NCBI RefSeq assembly: GCF_013340305.1
Contig: NZ_BLVP01000008.1
Location: 483,408-547,407, forward strand
DNA: 64,000 nucleotides
Reading direction: 5' to 3'
Source: Desulfovibrio psychrotolerans
GTDB taxonomy: Bacteria > Desulfobacterota > Desulfovibrionia > Desulfovibrionales > Desulfovibrionaceae
Shown here: in pieces, positions 49,292-56,892 of the stretch
Numbering within the stretch: the stretch's first letter is position 1
Layout of the letters: every line of letters starts with the position of its first letter
The notes under the pieces: model-generated
What the model was told of the DNA's origin: nothing
Seen by the model: the letters and a program-made list of their open reading frames with translations, nothing else
Database searches by the model: none
Program-made: the position numbers and the translations under genes

Positions 49292-49830
49292 TTCTTATCT
49301 CCTTTTGCGGGGCGTTGTTCAGGGGCAACGTAATAGGCAAGGGCCCAACGTTTGCGGGTATCTTCCGTCCACCAGAAGCCGCTTTCCGTCAGGCTGGTCA
49401 GATTGACCGTATCATCCATAAAGCGCACCAACCGGATACATGCGGTGTACAGTTCATCCCGGTCAGTAATGGCCAGCAGCCGTTGCATGCGCAGATCAAC
49501 CATGCTTCTGCCGCCCGTTCCGGGCTTTTCCGCCTGCATGGCGGCCAGTGCTTCCGGGATGGTGCGCTTATCCAGTTTGCACACATGTGCCAGTATGCCC
49601 ACAGGCAGAGCCAAGCTTTCCATTTCATCTTCCACAAGACGAATGCCGCTTTCTCGCAGCAGGCCGGGCAGAAAATTGCGCTGGTATGCGCGCGAAACGA
49701 GCACATCAAGCGGACTGCGGGCCCGGCGTAGCTCCGCCCGCATGCCCCGGTTCTGCTTAAGCCCTTCCCACCATGTGTGCAGAAAGCCTTTGAACGTGTC
49801 GTTTTTAAGAAATGCTCCGAATGCACTCAC
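49288..49830 (-). CDS. cse2: Cse2 (CasB), Cascade small subunit
   Basis: Helical subunit, present as a dimer, that stabilises the R-loop. 180 residues. Features: TWWEGLKQNRGMRAELRRA and SPLDVLVSRAYQRNFLP near the N-terminus, and FMDDTVNLTSL near the C-terminus. It overlaps both neighbours by 4 bases. Confidence 0.93.
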   Translation of the reverse strand: MSAFGAFLKNDTFKGFLHTWWEGLKQNRGMRAELRRARSPLDVLVSRAYQRNFLPGLLRESGIRLVEDEMESLALPVGILAHVCKLDKRTIPEALAAMQAEKPGTGGRSMVDLRMQRLLAITDRDELYTACIRLVRFMDDTVNLTSLTESGFWWTEDTRKRWALAYYVAPEQRPAKGDKK

Positions 49831-51431
49831 GCGTTGCCTCCCTTGTTGCCGGTTCCCAATTCCTTATTGCAGAGGCCCCGGTTGAACCGGCGCATCTGGT
49901 TAAGTGCTCCGTAAATGCGGGGTGCCTCTACGCTGCTGAAGGTTCCGCTTTCTGCCTGTTCCGCGAATAGGACCTCTGCGGTGTTCAGTATGGTTGTTGC
50001 CCATTCCTTGCGCAGGGTAGGGGCAAGCGCGTCCTGCTCTACCGGGTCGCCCTTCTGCAAAGGCATCACGAATCGGGCCACCAATGCATGGAACACCGAT
50101 TCCGTGCGGGACCAGAACGCCATGGAAGCGGCGGACAACAGTGTTTGGTCCGTCTTGGCGTTGCGGCCGCCATCTGCAAACAAGGCATCCTTGACGGCCT
50201 TGAGCATATTGGATCGAATCCTGTCCGCCACGGAGAGCCACAAGCCTACCTCTTCCCGCAGGATTGCCGCTTCGGCATCTTCCAGCGGGTAAAAAGGCAT
50301 TTCGCCCTCGCACCATTGCATGGGTTCCATGTTGTTCATGTCATAGCCGAACACGCTTATCCGCATGGTCGCCTTCTCCGTCAGATCGCGGACCTGCTGA
50401 ATGCACAGGGCGGGCAACAGCTTTTTCTTGCTGTCTGCCGGCAAGCCGTAGAGCAGGCCCAACCACTGGTTGTAGGCGGTGCCATCCGCGCTGCCTTTGA
50501 CAGACAGAGGCGGTTTGTCCTGCCCGGGGTCGTGGTAGGGCGTGAGGGGGTGACGCCACGCCCCTTCGTAGTTGTTGCCGTAGTTTTTGACCCCCATCTG
50601 CCGGATGACGGTTGTGGTGGCAGTGCCGCAGATATCGCAGCCGATCGGCTGGACGGATGTTTCACTGTGCAGCCGGATACGGCGCGGCATGCCCCAGAAG
50701 GCGTGCAGGGGGTGCCCGTGTTCCGGCAAGCATGCTGTGCCCTTTTCTTTGCTTATGCGTGTGGGCACGGTCCACGGAAGCACGCGGCCCAGTCCGTCCG
50801 GTGTGGTGGGCATGCGCCATTCATCGGAACTGGCTACCAGCACGTTGTTCCACACGGTTTCCCAAAGGGTATTGCCCAGCACCAGCGTGGAAAGAGGCCC
50901 GCCGCCGCGGAGAGAGGTGCGGTAACCTACCCCGCCGGTCGGAGCGAAAGCCTGCATGGTGAACAGGGCCATGGCGGCACAGGTGGGGCACAGGCTTTCT
51001 ATGCGTCCCCGTTTGACGAAGAAGTCCGTATCCTTTTTAAGGGCGTTCTCGCCGGGGGAGTCTATGAGCAGGGCAGCGATGCCGACGACGTTTTCTTCTT
51101 CCGGCGTCAGGGTGAGGTCCTGCATGAAGAGGGGGCGTTCCCCCAGCAGGAAAAAGTGGGGAAAGAACGGCTCCATGGCCGCGCGCAAGGTTTCGGGTTG
51201 CGGCGGTGTTTTCCGCCATGCCTGTTTATCCTTATTGCTGTGGGGCGGGATCATGGTCTGCACGCAGCCCACAAGGAATTCCAGCATGGCCCCTCCAAAG
51301 TCCGGTCGCGGCACATCCAGCGCCACCGGAGCAGGGGTTGCTGTCAGTTCCCACGGGGCAATGCGTGTGCGCCCCCCATCAGACAGGATAACGGGCAGCC
51401 ATTGGTCAGACAGGAGATTGAACGTCTTCAT
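49827..51431 (-). CDS. cse1: Cse1 (CasA/Cas8e), Cascade large subunit
   Basis: Recognises the PAM and recruits Cas3. 534 residues. Motifs: NLLSDQWLPVILSDG at the N-terminus, PALDVPRPDFGGAMLEFLVG-type LDVPRPDFGGAMLEFLVG, the zinc-like pair CPTCAAMALF and GCDICGTATTT, TGGVGYRTSLRGGGPLSTL, and a C-terminal four-helix bundle. It is the first gene of the cse1-cas2 operon. The promoter at 51788-51815 lies about 350 bases upstream. Confidence 0.97.
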   Translation of the reverse strand: MKTFNLLSDQWLPVILSDGGRTRIAPWELTATPAPVALDVPRPDFGGAMLEFLVGCVQTMIPPHSNKDKQAWRKTPPQPETLRAAMEPFFPHFFLLGERPLFMQDLTLTPEEENVVGIAALLIDSPGENALKKDTDFFVKRGRIESLCPTCAAMALFTMQAFAPTGGVGYRTSLRGGGPLSTLVLGNTLWETVWNNVLVASSDEWRMPTTPDGLGRVLPWTVPTRISKEKGTACLPEHGHPLHAFWGMPRRIRLHSETSVQPIGCDICGTATTTVIRQMGVKNYGNNYEGAWRHPLTPYHDPGQDKPPLSVKGSADGTAYNQWLGLLYGLPADSKKKLLPALCIQQVRDLTEKATMRISVFGYDMNNMEPMQWCEGEMPFYPLEDAEAAILREEVGLWLSVADRIRSNMLKAVKDALFADGGRNAKTDQTLLSAASMAFWSRTESVFHALVARFVMPLQKGDPVEQDALAPTLRKEWATTILNTAEVLFAEQAESGTFSSVEAPRIYGALNQMRRFNRGLCNKELGTGNKGGNA

Positions 51432-52051: not shown

Positions 52052-52354
52052 CTACACTTGGGCCGTTTTAATGGGTTCCACGGCCTTCCAGTCCGTATTG
52101 GTGTGAGCCACCTCCCAGAGGGTGTACCCCTGCTGCATGTTGAGCCAGAGTTCCGGTGAGGTGTTCAGAGCGCGGGACAGGCGCAACGCAATGTCCGGTG
52201 TGATGGAGGCGCGTTCGTTCACAATAGCGGAAAGCGTTTTGCGGGAAATGCCCAAACGCTGCGCCAGAGCGGTGATGGTGAGGCCCAGCGGCTCCATGTG
52301 CATCCGGTGCAGGATTCCGCCGGGATGCGTGGGTTTTCTGGTGCGGGTACGCAT
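52052..52354 (-). CDS. higA: HigA-family antitoxin
   Basis: XRE-type helix-turn-helix antitoxin, 100 residues. HPGGILHRMHMEPLGLTITA and LAQRLGISRKTLSAIVNERA form the HigA signature, followed by ITPDIALRLSRALNTSPELW. It binds DNA and neutralises the toxin encoded 10 bases upstream. Together they form a HigBA module inserted between cas3 and cse1. Its stop lies 22 bases from the putative promoter of the degenerate CRISPR unit. Confidence 0.93.
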   Translation of the reverse strand: MRTRTRKPTHPGGILHRMHMEPLGLTITALAQRLGISRKTLSAIVNERASITPDIALRLSRALNTSPELWLNMQQGYTLWEVAHTNTDWKAVEPIKTAQV

Positions 52355-52364
52355 GGCGTTCCTC

Positions 52365-52643
52365 CTAATGGTAGTCCTGATAGTTTACAATATGGGCATC
52401 GCCGTTTTCAAACCGGAAGGTCAGTCGCCAATTGCCGGAGACTTTTACTGACCAGTGGCCCTCACGTTTTCCTTTCAGTGGGTGAAGGGCAGAACCGGGG
52501 TAGTTCATGTCTCCGATCTCTCGAGCGTTGTCCAGGCGGTCCAGAATATCCAGCAGCTTGCGGACGTGCTTTTGCTGTACGCCTTTGGTAATTCCGTCGA
52601 AGAACAGGTCTTCAAGTCCGCTGTGTGCGAAGCTCCGTATCAT
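52365..52643 (-). CDS. higB: HigB/RelE-family toxin
   Basis: mRNA interferase of the RelE superfamily, 92 residues from ATG 52643. Start MIRSFAHSGLEDLFFDG, LRKLLD-type HVRKLLDILDRLDNA, and the C-terminal core GHWSVKVSGNWRLTFRFENGDAHIVNYQDYH, which contains the catalytic surface of HigB proteins. The longer frame from 52679 would start inside the promoter. Toxin-first order is typical of higBA. Confidence 0.93.
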   Translation of the reverse strand: MIRSFAHSGLEDLFFDGITKGVQQKHVRKLLDILDRLDNAREIGDMNYPGSALHPLKGKREGHWSVKVSGNWRLTFRFENGDAHIVNYQDYH

Positions 52644-52649
52644 GGAGTG

Positions 52650-52679
52650 AGTGTAACCATGTTGGTTACGCCTTGTCAA
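52650..52679 (-). promoter_or_regulatory. higBA promoter and operator
   Basis: Minus: TTGACA (52679-52674), 18 bases, TACACT (52655-52650). Between and over these lies a perfect dyad GTAACCA-TGT-TGGTTAC (52653-52669), the expected HigA operator. It is 7 bases from the higB start. Confidence 0.8.
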
Positions 52680-52715: not shown

Positions 52716-55403
52716 TCAGTATTCAGGATTGATAATAGTTAGGCCTGTGCTGTCCGTATACTCCACCTGTTGTTCCGCCCATGCTATCCAGCCCTCTCCA
52801 ACCTGCCGCAGAACCAGCGGCACGCACCACTTGCCCTTGTCCGGCATGCGCTCCAAGAGCGCGGCAAGCTGAACGGTCACGTCGGGCGGGAGCGTGGACG
52901 GCGTGACCTTGTGCAGGCCTACCGAGACTTCAGACATCCGACATGCAGCGGCCATACCGGGGGCTTCCGCCCAAAGATGCAGGCGGGTGCCATCCCAGCG
53001 CAGCAAGCGTAGTTGAACGGTCTCCTCCCCCAGTCGGGTGAGCACCTTCTCGTCTGTTTCCCAGCCTCTCCCGACAGCCCCGATGGAATAACCGGCTTCC
53101 AGCTTCAAGGCATTATACCGGGCCATATCACGTTTCCCCATGCGTGTGGGGAGGTGCTTCTCATCGGCTTTCAGCAGTGCCTGCGGCGCAAAGGCCGAGT
53201 CGTCATACGTCGATTCCACCAGTCTGCGTGCGTCATCGGGGAGAGAGAGGTGCTGTGTCTCTTCCAGCAATCTGGCTGTACGCCAGAGCGGGGCCTGCAC
53301 GGGATAGACAAACTGGGCCTTGCCCAGCACTGAGGCATACCAGTCGCTTGTGGCGTTTGTCTGTGCCTGCGGAGCCAAGACACGCATGCGGGGGGATTCC
53401 AGTCCGGCAGGCCGGGAACGCTTGTGGCGGTGACAGCGGCCACCGCGCTGAATGAGCAATTCCATGGGGGCAAGGTCGGATGCCAGAAGATCAAAATCCA
53501 GATCAAGGCTTTGCTCAACAACCTGTGTGGCTATCAGTATTTTGCCGCGCCTGTCTTCCGGCGTGCTCTCTTTGCCGAACAGGGCCATCACCCGTTCTTC
53601 AATGGCTTGGCGGTCTGCCATGGCGAACCGGGCATGGAAGAGAATGATGTCTTCTTCCGGGACGCCATATTGCGTACGCAGGTGCTGATACGCTTCTCCC
53701 GCCTGATCCACCGTGTTGCGTATCCAGCAGGTGCAACCGCCAAAAGTGCGGGTTTCTATGAGCGCGTTATAGAGGGCGTTTTCGTCTGTGGTCATCTCTA
53801 CACGGATTATTGCATGCCGGGTGGCCGGGATATCTTGCTCCCTGGTGCCCTGCCGGTCCACTGCCGTGGCCAGAGGAAAAAAGCCGGAATGCAGGGATGG
53901 GGGTGGATATCCCGCTCCTTCACAGAACGCGGCGGCAAGATTGGCGCGCATGCTCCGGGTGAGCGTGGCGGAAAGAAGAATGGCACTGCCCCCGAGGGCT
54001 GCATGAAAACGGAGGAGGGTCTGGAGCAATGATCCGGTGTATTCGTCGTAGGCATGCACCTCGTCTACCACCAGCACGTTGCGGGCCAGTCCGAGCAGGC
54101 GCAGGCACTGGTGCCGGGCCGGGAGCACGGCCATGAGGGCCTGATCTATTGTGCCCACGCCGCACTGGGACAGCAGTGCCTTTTTTCGGGAATCGGCAAG
54201 CCATGTGGCACAGTAGGAGCGCCCATCGGTCTGCGGATCAATGGATGGAGATGTGCCGGCATCGGGAACGCTGGCCATGAACAGTTCGGAAAGATTGCGG
54301 GCGCCGTGCGCCAGCATCAGGGATATGGGGGCGGGCTGGCCGCTGCCTTCATCTTCTGCAAACAGTGCCCGGTAGGACTGGGCCAGCCGTGCATACATGC
54401 CGTTGGCCGTGGCCATGGTGGGCAGGCCGATGTAGAATCCTTCCGCCTCGCCCATGTGCATGAGCCCGTGACAGCAGAGCAGAGCTGCTTCCGTTTTGCC
54501 GCCCCCGGTCATGTCTTCAAATATATGCAGCTGGGGACCGGCGTGTTGCAGGGCATAGTGCAGGGCATGGGTTTGCAGCGGGCTGGGCCGGGCGTCTGCA
54601 TGAAGATGGGGAAGCAGCCGGGTAAAGTCGCGCTCCGGTTGGGCGGGCGACGCCAGCAAGCCGGATTCACATACGGCGCGCTGCGCATGGGGCAGTGCCA
54701 CTTCTTCCCAGTATGTTTTTAGCGGCATCGGTTCTGTGCAGAAAGGAAACCAGCGCGTGTTGGAACCAAGCCAGTCTGCTGCCACCATGAGTCCTGCATG
54801 GAGCCACGAGAGAGCGCAGAAGCTCTGCTCATCTTCCGGAATCGCCATGGGTTCCATCAGCAAACCGACAACCTCGGAGGCAAAGCTGGCTGCGTGTTCT
54901 GCCGAGCGGCGGAAGTGCCGTATGGAGCCGGACTCTTCCTGCGGAGAGCCGTGATGCCCGAATGTTGCGGCAATGAGGGGGTGCATGGTGTGCGCCGCTT
55001 CTTCGGAAAAGGCGGAGTGATGGTTCTCCAGTTTCTGGCGGACAACACTCATGTAGAGCGATTGCCCCAGCGCGGTATGGTGCGTGTTGCCGCCAAGGCC
55101 GGAAGGCGGGGCGTTTGTAAGCATGGCCCGAGCCGCTGCCTGCTGCTCCTGAAAGAGCGACGCAAATTTGCCTATGTCGTGCAGGGCTGCGAGTGTGCGA
55201 AGGAGTGCGCGGATGCTGGTTGCAGGTAACCCGGAGAGGTGCGTGATGCGCCGCAGCAGGAGAGGGGAGTGGTAAAGGAGTCTGTCGTAGACGGCTGCAA
55301 CATCCAACAGGTGATAGGGCAGCAGGTGGATGAACGGGGCAGTGTTCTTGTCAAATTTTGCCCAGTAGCCGAAATAGGGCTGTTCCGTGTTGCATGGGGG
55401 CAT
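52716..55403 (-). CDS. cas3: Cas3, type I-E helicase-nuclease
   Basis: Recruited by Cascade to nick, unwind and degrade target DNA. 895 residues. N-terminal HD nuclease: HLLPYHLLDVAAVY, LAALHDIGKFASLF, HHTALG and ATFGHHGSPQ. Superfamily 2 helicase: motif I DMTGGGKTEAALL, II VVDEVHAYDEYTG, III LLSATLTRS, V QVVEQSLDLDFD, VI QRGGRCHRHKR. A C-terminal domain follows. Full length and intact. It is separated from cse1 by 1.28 kb that hold higBA, the degenerate CRISPR unit and the cas promoter, whereas in many I-E loci cas3 lies directly beside cse1. Confidence 0.97.
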   Translation of the reverse strand: MPPCNTEQPYFGYWAKFDKNTAPFIHLLPYHLLDVAAVYDRLLYHSPLLLRRITHLSGLPATSIRALLRTLAALHDIGKFASLFQEQQAAARAMLTNAPPSGLGGNTHHTALGQSLYMSVVRQKLENHHSAFSEEAAHTMHPLIAATFGHHGSPQEESGSIRHFRRSAEHAASFASEVVGLLMEPMAIPEDEQSFCALSWLHAGLMVAADWLGSNTRWFPFCTEPMPLKTYWEEVALPHAQRAVCESGLLASPAQPERDFTRLLPHLHADARPSPLQTHALHYALQHAGPQLHIFEDMTGGGKTEAALLCCHGLMHMGEAEGFYIGLPTMATANGMYARLAQSYRALFAEDEGSGQPAPISLMLAHGARNLSELFMASVPDAGTSPSIDPQTDGRSYCATWLADSRKKALLSQCGVGTIDQALMAVLPARHQCLRLLGLARNVLVVDEVHAYDEYTGSLLQTLLRFHAALGGSAILLSATLTRSMRANLAAAFCEGAGYPPPSLHSGFFPLATAVDRQGTREQDIPATRHAIIRVEMTTDENALYNALIETRTFGGCTCWIRNTVDQAGEAYQHLRTQYGVPEEDIILFHARFAMADRQAIEERVMALFGKESTPEDRRGKILIATQVVEQSLDLDFDLLASDLAPMELLIQRGGRCHRHKRSRPAGLESPRMRVLAPQAQTNATSDWYASVLGKAQFVYPVQAPLWRTARLLEETQHLSLPDDARRLVESTYDDSAFAPQALLKADEKHLPTRMGKRDMARYNALKLEAGYSIGAVGRGWETDEKVLTRLGEETVQLRLLRWDGTRLHLWAEAPGMAAACRMSEVSVGLHKVTPSTLPPDVTVQLAALLERMPDKGKWCVPLVLRQVGEGWIAWAEQQVEYTDSTGLTIINPEY

Positions 55404-55843
55404 CTCTGCTTATCCTCGTAAGGCTGTGCCGGAGCGGGCAACAGCTATGGTCGATGGACCGTTTGCACAACGTGCTATGCGTGGCGGAGCTAACCATAAA
55501 TAGGCATTCATATAGAGCCGGTTTAACAATGCCGTAGCCATGCCTATCATCTCCACGGGCAAGCAGCAAATTCTCCCGCTGTTGTGGAGGAGGCTGAGCG
55601 TCTTTGCGGAGTCATAGGTGAAGCTGGCTGGAACGTGTACAGCAGAAACAGACGCCGGGTGCGCGGCTCGCCACACGGTGCACCGGGCAGGTGCCAGGCG
55701 ACATGAGTACGATACAGACTATGCTTACGACCTGACGCAGGGGCGCACAGGATGATGACTGCCGTACTTGCGGGCTACGAAGGAGACGCACATGCCGGGC
55801 AGGGAAGATGTTTTAATAGCATACTTCAAGATTGTTATAATAT
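55404..55843. other. 440-base gap without a convincing gene
   Basis: Region between cas3 and the AT-rich gene. A plus-strand frame of about 65 codons lacking a start ends at a TGA near 55707 (reading AVVEEAERLCGVIGEAG in the middle); it may be a gene remnant but is too weak to call. The cas3 promoter must lie here; I see no strong match. Confidence 0.4.
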
Positions 55844-56812
55844 TTATGCCCCTGCCTGTCGTCCTAAAGCCGATTTAAAAGAATCCAAATCAAGCATGCA
55901 TTCCTCAAATAAACCATACCCCATGAAGGATGAGGTTGCGAATTTGACATCTGCATATTGCTGGAGAGCCATGTAGGCTTGGTTAAATGCATCAGAATTT
56001 AATTCATTTCTCAAAACTTTTGAAGCCGGGTCGTGATTGGCAAGGAGTAATATATATATCGGTCTTCCTGACAACTCGGGAACCGCATTCTTGTTGCCGT
56101 TTTTTGAAAAGAGTACAAGTCCTAACTCCCGTTTTTGGTTGAACTGCTCGCAAATTGTTATTTTAATTTCCTCGCAATCACCAGGCTCTCGAAGGCATGC
56201 TACTGTTTTTTCCATATGTTCGACAATTCCAGAAGAACCAGACAGTGCACTGTCGGAATATTTAACTTCAATAATAGCAAGCTTTTGTGAAGGACTTTCA
56301 ATAAATTTTCTTGCACTTGATGTACTAGGCCAATAAATTGCCATGGCATCGAATTTTGTAGAAATAGTATTAACAGTCTTTTCAAATTCAACATCAACAA
56401 TGAAATAGTCAGTTAAATTTGATACACGAGAATAGCTATTTTCTCTTGATACTAATTGCTGAAATTCTCTTTCAGGTTTCATGTTTTTAGAGAAGTGAAT
56501 ATCCATTTCTAATTTTAAAAACTGAAAATCATTTACCCATCTTTGTGCATCATTCATACTCGATACGTCATAGGGCAAGTTAACAAAATAAGATGGATCT
56601 TTGAGATAATTCTTGTCAAAATCCATTTTATACGAATTAGTATTATTATTCCTTTTTATCCCAACAAGCTTGCCTCCTCTGTAGTATATATGGATTTCAT
56701 TGTCCCTAATTTGTAAATCTAACGTATGGTCGTCGCGCACTCTTTTTAATACAGGAGTGAGATTGCCGTTTTTTAAGTCAGTAATAAATTCAGGTGACAA
56801 TTTCCTTCCCAT
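55844..56812 (-). CDS. AT-rich gene for a putative PD-(D/E)XK nuclease, possible defence protein
   Basis: 322 residues, codon use far more AT-rich than its neighbours, which suggests recent transfer. The middle carries a nuclease-like core: Glu115 in KPEREFQQLVSRE, Asp155 in STKFDAMAIYW, and Glu182-x-Lys184 in KLAIIEVKYSDSAL, the order expected of the PD-(D/E)XK fold. The N-terminal 60 residues are Lys/Arg/Asn-rich with beta character. No partner methylase or second subunit is nearby. It lies between cas3 and a gene remnant; a role in phage defence is inference from composition and place. Confidence 0.7.
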   Translation of the reverse strand: MGRKLSPEFITDLKNGNLTPVLKRVRDDHTLDLQIRDNEIHIYYRGGKLVGIKRNNNTNSYKMDFDKNYLKDPSYFVNLPYDVSSMNDAQRWVNDFQFLKLEMDIHFSKNMKPEREFQQLVSRENSYSRVSNLTDYFIVDVEFEKTVNTISTKFDAMAIYWPSTSSARKFIESPSQKLAIIEVKYSDSALSGSSGIVEHMEKTVACLREPGDCEEIKITICEQFNQKRELGLVLFSKNGNKNAVPELSGRPIYILLLANHDPASKVLRNELNSDAFNQAYMALQQYADVKFATSSFMGYGLFEECMLDLDSFKSALGRQAGA

Positions 56813-56861
56813 TTCTAACTCCTTATTGTGTATCTAAAATAGCACAGAGAGATAATTTTCA

Positions 56862-56892
56862 GAAATACGCTATAAGTATACTTATATGTCAA
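56862..56892 (-). promoter_or_regulatory. Promoter with a 16-bp perfect palindrome, for the AT-rich gene
   Basis: Minus: TTGACA (56892-56887) directly followed by the palindrome TATAAGTA-TACTTATA (56886-56871), then TATTTC (56867-56862) as a possible -10. An operator between the -35 and -10 is a classical repressor layout. It is about 50 bases before the start codon. Confidence 0.6.

Follow-up and report, generated by a model that had tools for sequence, protein, structure and literature searches.

A gene for a nuclease-like protein lies beside a type I-E CRISPR locus in the 64,000-nucleotide stretch of Desulfovibrio psychrotolerans DNA analysed here (contig NZ_BLVP01000008.1; this whole stretch is referred to as the window). 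The features of the locus are listed in Table 1.

Table 1. Features at and around the nuclease-like gene (positions within the window).
Feature	Position	Strand	Basis
NUC-family nuclease-like gene, 322 aa, intact ORF, ATG start	55844..56812	-	ORF, homologues, composition
GGAG Shine-Dalgarno-like box	56819..56822	-	sequence itself
N-terminal domain, residues 6-110, frataxin/CyaY/YdhG-like (predicted)	56483..56797	-	AlphaFold and VIA
C-terminal PD-(D/E)XK-like domain, residues 112-309 (predicted)	55886..56479	-	element order and VIA
E116 codon, acidic residue in first core helix (H113-126)	56465..56467	-	conservation
D155 codon, second strand (E150-160)	56348..56350	-	94/94 rows
E182-V-K184 codons (ExK motif), third strand (E177-185)	56261..56269	-	conservation
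16-bp perfect palindrome TATAAGTATACTTATA, possible operator	56871..56886	.	real, unconserved
TTGACA hexamer abutting the palindrome	56887..56892	-	sequence; consensus -10 not found by scan
cas3, type I-E locus (context only)	52716..55403	-	Pfam Cas3_HD, Cas3-like_C_2
cse1	49827-51431		type I-E operon

Composition, upstream region and CRISPR neighbourhood

The gene has a G+C content of 35.8%, compared to 59.3% in the whole window. When the window was scanned, a composition as low as that of the gene was found in 8 of 1261 sliding 969-bp stretches, and 500-bp stretches below 46% G+C started only at positions 55751-56751. The AT-rich character described in the initial annotation was thus confirmed, and this is the sole such stretch in the window.

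The palindrome upstream of the gene is perfect. Allowing up to 3 mismatches, it has a single occurrence in the window (0.02 expected) and, allowing up to 2, a single place in the whole genome. When the 288 bp upstream of the gene were shuffled 2000 times, a perfect palindrome of at least 16 bp arose in 12 cases. It had been described as lying between the -35 and -10 elements of a promoter and as a sign of tight operator control. The palindrome itself is genuine, but the flanking promoter found no support, as a consensus scan revealed no sigma-70 site at the palindrome, despite the TTGACA hexamer. Nor is the palindrome conserved: none of 78 homologous loci had a palindrome of at least 14 bp within up to 250 bp upstream, and in these loci its core was not found outside window-derived sequence. 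A conserved operator was consequently rejected.

The cas3 gene lies 440 bp downstream of the nuclease-like gene, on the same strand. Between cas3 and cse1 there is a HigB-like toxin gene paired with an HTH (HigA-like) antitoxin gene (52052-52679, minus strand), and a CRISPR array with 62 repeat copies at 61-bp spacing starts at about 41587 (~41.6 kb). The position beside cas3 is as first described, but a linkage to CRISPR was not seen elsewhere in the taxonomic family. Among the 12 of its genomes that carry the gene, cas3 adjoins it in this one only: strong cas3 matches (E < 1e-140) were found in 19 other genomes, none of which is among the 11 others with the gene. A conserved link to cas genes, as expected of an ancillary CRISPR nuclease, was consequently rejected.

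Predicted fold, active site and distribution of the family

The window protein was modelled with AlphaFold on a 63-protein alignment (mean pLDDT 93.7). The N-terminal domain resembles frataxin/CyaY/YdhG (VIA Z of 7.0 to 2oc6, 6.8 to 9t2w and 6.6 to 4lp1); with Z values under 8, this likeness of the model is suggestive. The C-terminal domain is predicted to follow the order H113-126, E136-147, E150-160, E177-185 and H196-208, and its VIA matches were XisH, NucS/EndoMS, FokI, HamA, Can2/Card1, McrC, SduA and NucC (Z 4.8-7.3). XisH, NucS, FokI, HamA (Hachiman), Can2/Card1, McrC, SduA (Shedu) and NucC are all proteins which we take to be members of the PD-(D/E)XK superfamily. The VIA tool advises caution under Z 8 and all matches of the window protein fall below this value; consequently, the fold call leans on the recurrence of PD-(D/E)XK families and on the residues described below. 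Foldseek searches of the model against the PDB and viral models gave no match at E ≤ 0.001, and PDB sequence searches with the window sequence and with the family profile returned nothing credible.

Of the 94 aligned rows, 84 have Glu and 9 have Asp at position 116, residue 155 is Asp in all 94, and E182 and K184 are each kept in 86, with all 8 exceptions being Halodesulfovibrio-group copies. The window protein has the helix acid, the second-strand Asp and the third-strand ExK that characterise PD-(D/E)XK residues. The Glu/Asp/Glu-x-Lys core read from the sequence by the initial annotation (E116, D155, E182-x-K184) is therefore present and conserved in the family, K184 was the right lysine to single out, and structure prediction gave a PD-(D/E)XK-like C-terminal domain rather than a fold without a nuclease core. 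The window protein probably combines a frataxin/YdhG-like N-terminal domain with a PD-(D/E)XK nuclease-like C-terminal domain in which E/D/ExK is intact, and it would then have nuclease activity.

The eight exceptions belong to a distinct branch. In six genomes (L018 and L020-L024; Halodesulfovibrio where named) the homologue sits, by eye, between permease-like and methyltransferase-like genes. It has lost ExK, which reads A/S-x-R, and also E114, and dN/dS is 0.036-0.078 in the 5 pairs out of 15 for which it was computable, with dS near saturation. This homologue is possibly a repurposed pseudo-nuclease: with its active site lost but dN/dS low, the branch may exemplify a nuclease that has taken on another role. 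Extended to the whole family, such a reading would make these proteins regulators that keep the fold but do not function by cleavage. The Halodesulfovibrio branch, kept at one place under low dN/dS, speaks for it, but the ExK motif is retained in the great majority of rows, the window protein included, and we consider a non-catalytic regulator very improbable. Housekeeping operons around the homologues, which were to count against a defence role, were seen in none of the loci read, with the exception that this branch occupies a single fixed position in the chromosome.

The window protein was not recognised by any family of Pfam, NCBIfam, PADLOC or PHROGs, in agreement with its first description as unrecognised. 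There was one sub-threshold match in Pfam (CHU_C, 0.014), none in NCBIfam, none up to E 5 among the PADLOC-DB 2.0.0 models and two weak ones in PHROGs; none of the matches in the family libraries was to a protease family. Pfam PD-(D/E)XK families gave nothing significant with the 63 family members (best 0.003, in 2 of the 63).

The gene was found in 12 of 199 genomes of the same taxonomic family and, by profile search, in 5 of 395 genomes of the phylum, the own genome being counted in both. Scanning GTDB contigs with the single window sequence gave no relatives, while the profile gave 96, of which the best 80 were fetched; they include Chloroflexi, Clostridia, Bacteroidetes, Bradyrhizobium, Geobacter and Bathyarchaeota. 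Some are the same or near-same loci (L096/L097, L015/L045, L019/L105, L018/L094, L024/L108 and L016/L017), and duplicates and fragments were removed for tree and distance tests. The tree mixes archaea with Chloroflexi and Bacteroidetes with Halanaerobiaceae, and several homologue loci have low G+C relative to their surroundings. The proposed horizontal transfer of the window gene was supported. No homologues of the window protein were found in phage, plasmid and IMG/VR collections, and a plasmid search for the L072 nuclease was likewise negative. One genome (G015) carries the gene twice (L016/L017); the two copies encode identical proteins, point in opposite directions and are separated by about 1.3 Mb. 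Their shared flanks include an integrase-like gene, and the arrangement looks like a duplicated mobile element.

An RNase J-like MBL partner and its repeated loss

Reading the neighbourhoods revealed a gene of the metallo-beta-lactamase (MBL) fold adjoining the homologues of G198, G095, G009 and G130. Across the best 80 of the 96 relatives, an RNase J-like beta-CASP MBL was encoded within 500 bp on the same strand in 56 loci (upstream in 34, downstream in 22). A further 9 loci were called near by the script rule (one of them, L062, on another MBL 5.5 kb away), and 15, several at contig ends, had no MBL; these counts include duplicate loci. The two reading frames overlap or touch in many loci, and in Marinospirillum (L114) they are naturally fused into a 763 aa protein. 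In the predicted structure of this fusion the MBL half is good, while the nuclease half has pLDDT mostly below 60 and no interface is readable, perhaps because the mixed alignment is bad. Distances between the nucleases and between the MBL proteins are correlated (r 0.50 over 55 loci, compared to a maximum of 0.24 in 1000 permutations). The description of the window gene as stand-alone consequently holds for this copy, but the family is normally paired.

The partner is about 415 aa long. Residues H55, H57, D59, H60, D145, H366, G369, H370 and H392 are invariant in all 60 long MBL rows, and the features that mark an RNase J-like beta-CASP protein (MBL motifs, HxSGHA and final His) were present throughout these rows, together with an RMMBL domain in the partner. 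Among solved structures, the profile came nearest to 2az4 (E 1.3e-38) and RNase J (1.9e-31) in a PDB search, and the fold matched the same two (4.8e-25 and 3.8e-23 respectively). The next-best proteins of the same genomes are 550-800 aa frames which score below 100 bits with the MBL profile, compared to more than 400 bits for the partner, and which by reading are RNase J. Two MBL partners gave no match up to E 0.1 in PADLOC-DB 2.0.0. Five loci (L056, L067, L075, L090 and L107) share a small protein of about 125-133 aa close to the module.

An RNase J-like partner would also fit a housekeeping complex for RNA processing or DNA repair; the available text of PMC10470531 reports a RecJ3/4-aRNase J complex for Haloferax, and the archaeal RecJ-aRNase J nuclease complex would be the model. 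Against this stand the patchy presence of the gene in both genome sets, its low G+C in several loci and the mixed tree, and we regard such a complex as improbable.

The genome of the window has no constant MBL subunit, and therefore the window copy is an orphan. Searches of this genome gave weak MBL matches only (best E 5.1e-7) and none at the profile threshold, and no MBL remnant better than E 1.1 was found beside the window gene. Its closest relative (L014, in G198; 57% identical) has the MBL. Over the tree, the partner state changes at least 10 times, and some losses have left scars. Directly before an open nuclease gene, only the last 18-23 MBL residues remain at L062:5240-5293 and L071:5926-5994 (18 C-terminal residues in L062); the C-terminal two thirds of the MBL are left in L059, behind a type I R-M locus; and in L087 the MBL is split by transposase genes (identified by eye). 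L055 is also among the loci with an MBL scar (a C-terminal part or a split gene) before an intact nuclease gene.

These losses bear on three alternatives. The first is a toxin-antitoxin-like pair, with one subunit keeping the other in check, as the two-gene layout and the overlapping or touching frames of many loci might indicate. In L062, L071, L059 and L087, the nuclease gene has remained open although the MBL is missing, truncated or split, which speaks against the MBL being a strict antitoxin. Together with the free gene order, the one fusion and the full active sites in both halves, this leaves a restraining pair with little probability. The second alternative, that the window gene is a decaying, functionless relic of a transferred island, agrees with the missing partner, with the lack of an MBL remnant nearby and with the MBL scars at other loci. 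It is opposed by the full-length frame, the ribosome-binding box and the retention of all catalytic residues, and is unlikely. About as unlikely is the third, a restriction-like or abortive nuclease that acts alone and was recruited to a site next to CRISPR. The intact catalytic core in a genome without such an MBL suits it, as do the orphan copies near an integrase-like gene in G015 and an orphan directly after a type I restriction gene (L051), but the MBL adjoins most homologues and cas3 was seen adjacent in this genome only.

We therefore favour, with a probability of about 0.6, the reading that the window gene is an orphaned copy from one clade of the hypervariable subunit of a mobile two-gene module, the constant subunit of which is the RNase J-like beta-CASP MBL. 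The predicted fold, conserved residues, pairing, fusions, repeated partner loss and signs of transfer behind this reading were computed directly.

Variable partners, defence context and comparison with known systems

The variability of the nuclease subunit is seen from the MBL side. With the MBL profile, 14 loci above 400 bits were found in the 199 genomes of the same taxonomic family, the next match having 98 bits. Four of the 14 are paired with the window nuclease family. Of the other ten, nine have, touching the MBL or close to it, a protein of about 250-330 aa that carries a D...ExK signature, and in the tenth (G099) the contig ends soon past the MBL. The 395 phylum genomes contributed 13 further MBL loci: 7 with a D...ExK neighbour and 3 with a fused D...ExK domain. 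In one more, the fused part looks like a shortened relative of this domain; of the last two, one lies at a contig end and the other has no such neighbour. Overall, a D...ExK neighbour or fused domain was found in 19 of the 23 MBL loci without the window family, mostly unrelated in sequence, compared to 5 of 71 random-region ORFs and 12 of 307 other neighbours. The signature was defined after these partners had been viewed and the plasmid test alone was made later, which makes the latter the fairer one. The plasmid list had 10 records, of which H2 was counted as a duplicate of H1 and not fetched. A D...ExK neighbour was present in 7 of the 9 distinct records, one of them doubtful (L182, where the string is possibly spurious), and the signature was absent from L186 and L189.

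Profile comparison linked the window family to one of three other partner groups (97.8%) and gave less than 1% for the other two; these unlinked groups therefore share the signature, their homology being unproven. With D...ExK partners in both the reverse-search and the plasmid loci, the module looks like a conserved MBL with a hypervariable PD-(D/E)XK partner. In L168, L169, L170 and L177 the MBL has a C-terminal extension of 240-350 aa, with the D...ExK signature in three of the four, and by eye the L159 partner resembles this extension.

Defence genes were seen around several modules. Hand-picked neighbours included BrxA/BrxB/BrxC (L162), type I methyltransferase (L161 and L059), AbiEi/AbiEii (L164), AbiEii (L059) and a type I restriction subunit (L051); 9 of the 10 neighbours in this set matched, and they give context, not enrichment. 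Integrase-like genes (by eye) and WYL regulators also lie near relatives or MBL modules, and R-M genes surround the module on a Rhizobium plasmid. In a defence scan, 130 nearest neighbours (from 81 loci considered, one without a family match; no more than one protein on each side, 100-650 aa long) were not clearly richer than 110 of the 135 control proteins. Strong defence matches occurred in both lists (50 model families in neighbours and 104 in controls), and among the matches listed for controls were GajB-like, methyltransferase and restriction models. PF02384 methyltransferase was encoded within 20 kb in 4 of 33 genomes (G583, G584, G606 and G608), where a rough hand estimate gave about 1.4 expected, a weak signal. 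A defence role is plausible, and patchy, transferred modules of two nucleases would most naturally be read in this way.

In the mechanism we envisage, the variable PD-(D/E)XK subunit would recognise and cut the invading nucleic acid. It is assigned the contact with the target because it varies while the MBL stays constant. The beta-CASP subunit, with its complete RNase J-type active site, would then degrade the opened product, and the pair would serve as an accessory nuclease against invaders. In the window, the orphan might cut by itself, make use of another nuclease or be a relic, perhaps an early one. Complete active sites on both subunits and the natural fusions fit this cut-then-degrade scheme, in which activity, substrate and division of labour are suppositions of ours. 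It is conceivable, though we hold it with less confidence than the reading of the window gene itself, that the module is an undescribed and widespread form of immunity, with a constant beta-CASP nuclease and an interchangeable, fast-diverging PD-(D/E)XK subunit which sets the target. By analogy, it might correspond to systems that swap specificity subunits, here in bacteria and archaea, on islands and plasmids.

The window gene is thus a doorway to a nuclease module unnamed in the family libraries used, in which one constant RNase J-like enzyme goes with many partners sharing little beyond the D...ExK signature. If the module is immune, an RNA-type nuclease is added to defence islands in an architecture not shown by the open-licence papers that the searches found. 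With pairs and fusions available from nature, this can be tested directly in a laboratory strain.

Among known systems, the window protein is like the PD-(D/E)XK superfamily in core element order, in its E/D/ExK residues and in its VIA matches over residues ~112-309, but differs in the frataxin/YdhG-like N-terminal domain of the model and, as a family, in the RNase J-like partner. The MBL partner shares HxHxDH, GD, HxSGHA and the last His (60/60) with the RNase J/CPSF73-type beta-CASP ribonucleases and, unlike them, is about 415 aa long and shares an operon, or a single polypeptide, with a PD-(D/E)XK-like protein. Cas14 of type VII CRISPR is also a beta-CASP nuclease, and its structure 8yhd matches the MBL profile (E 6.7e-12), but according to the available part of the source Cas14 works with Cas7, and no cas gene was noticed beside the MBL in the loci whose neighbours were read. 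Searches of open-licence papers gave no report of an RNase J-like MBL paired with a PD-(D/E)XK protein. As far as the accessible text of Tuck et al. 2025 (PMC12799240) goes, MBL nucleases are paired with proteases in Hachiman/AVAST/Lamassu/DRT. Those pairs likewise consist of an MBL-fold nuclease and a second gene and spread by transfer; in that text, the partner is a trypsin-like or caspase-type protease that activates a proenzyme. By contrast, the partner here is PD-(D/E)XK-like and the MBL is an RNase J-like beta-CASP protein. An MBL nuclease-protease pair was rejected as an identity of the module, the MBL neighbour being the window nuclease family in 56 of 80 loci (best 80 of 96) and a D...ExK protein in 19/23 and 7/9 loci of the reverse search and the plasmids. 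We place the window gene within the PD-(D/E)XK kind, as a variant; what would be new is the module as an immune system.
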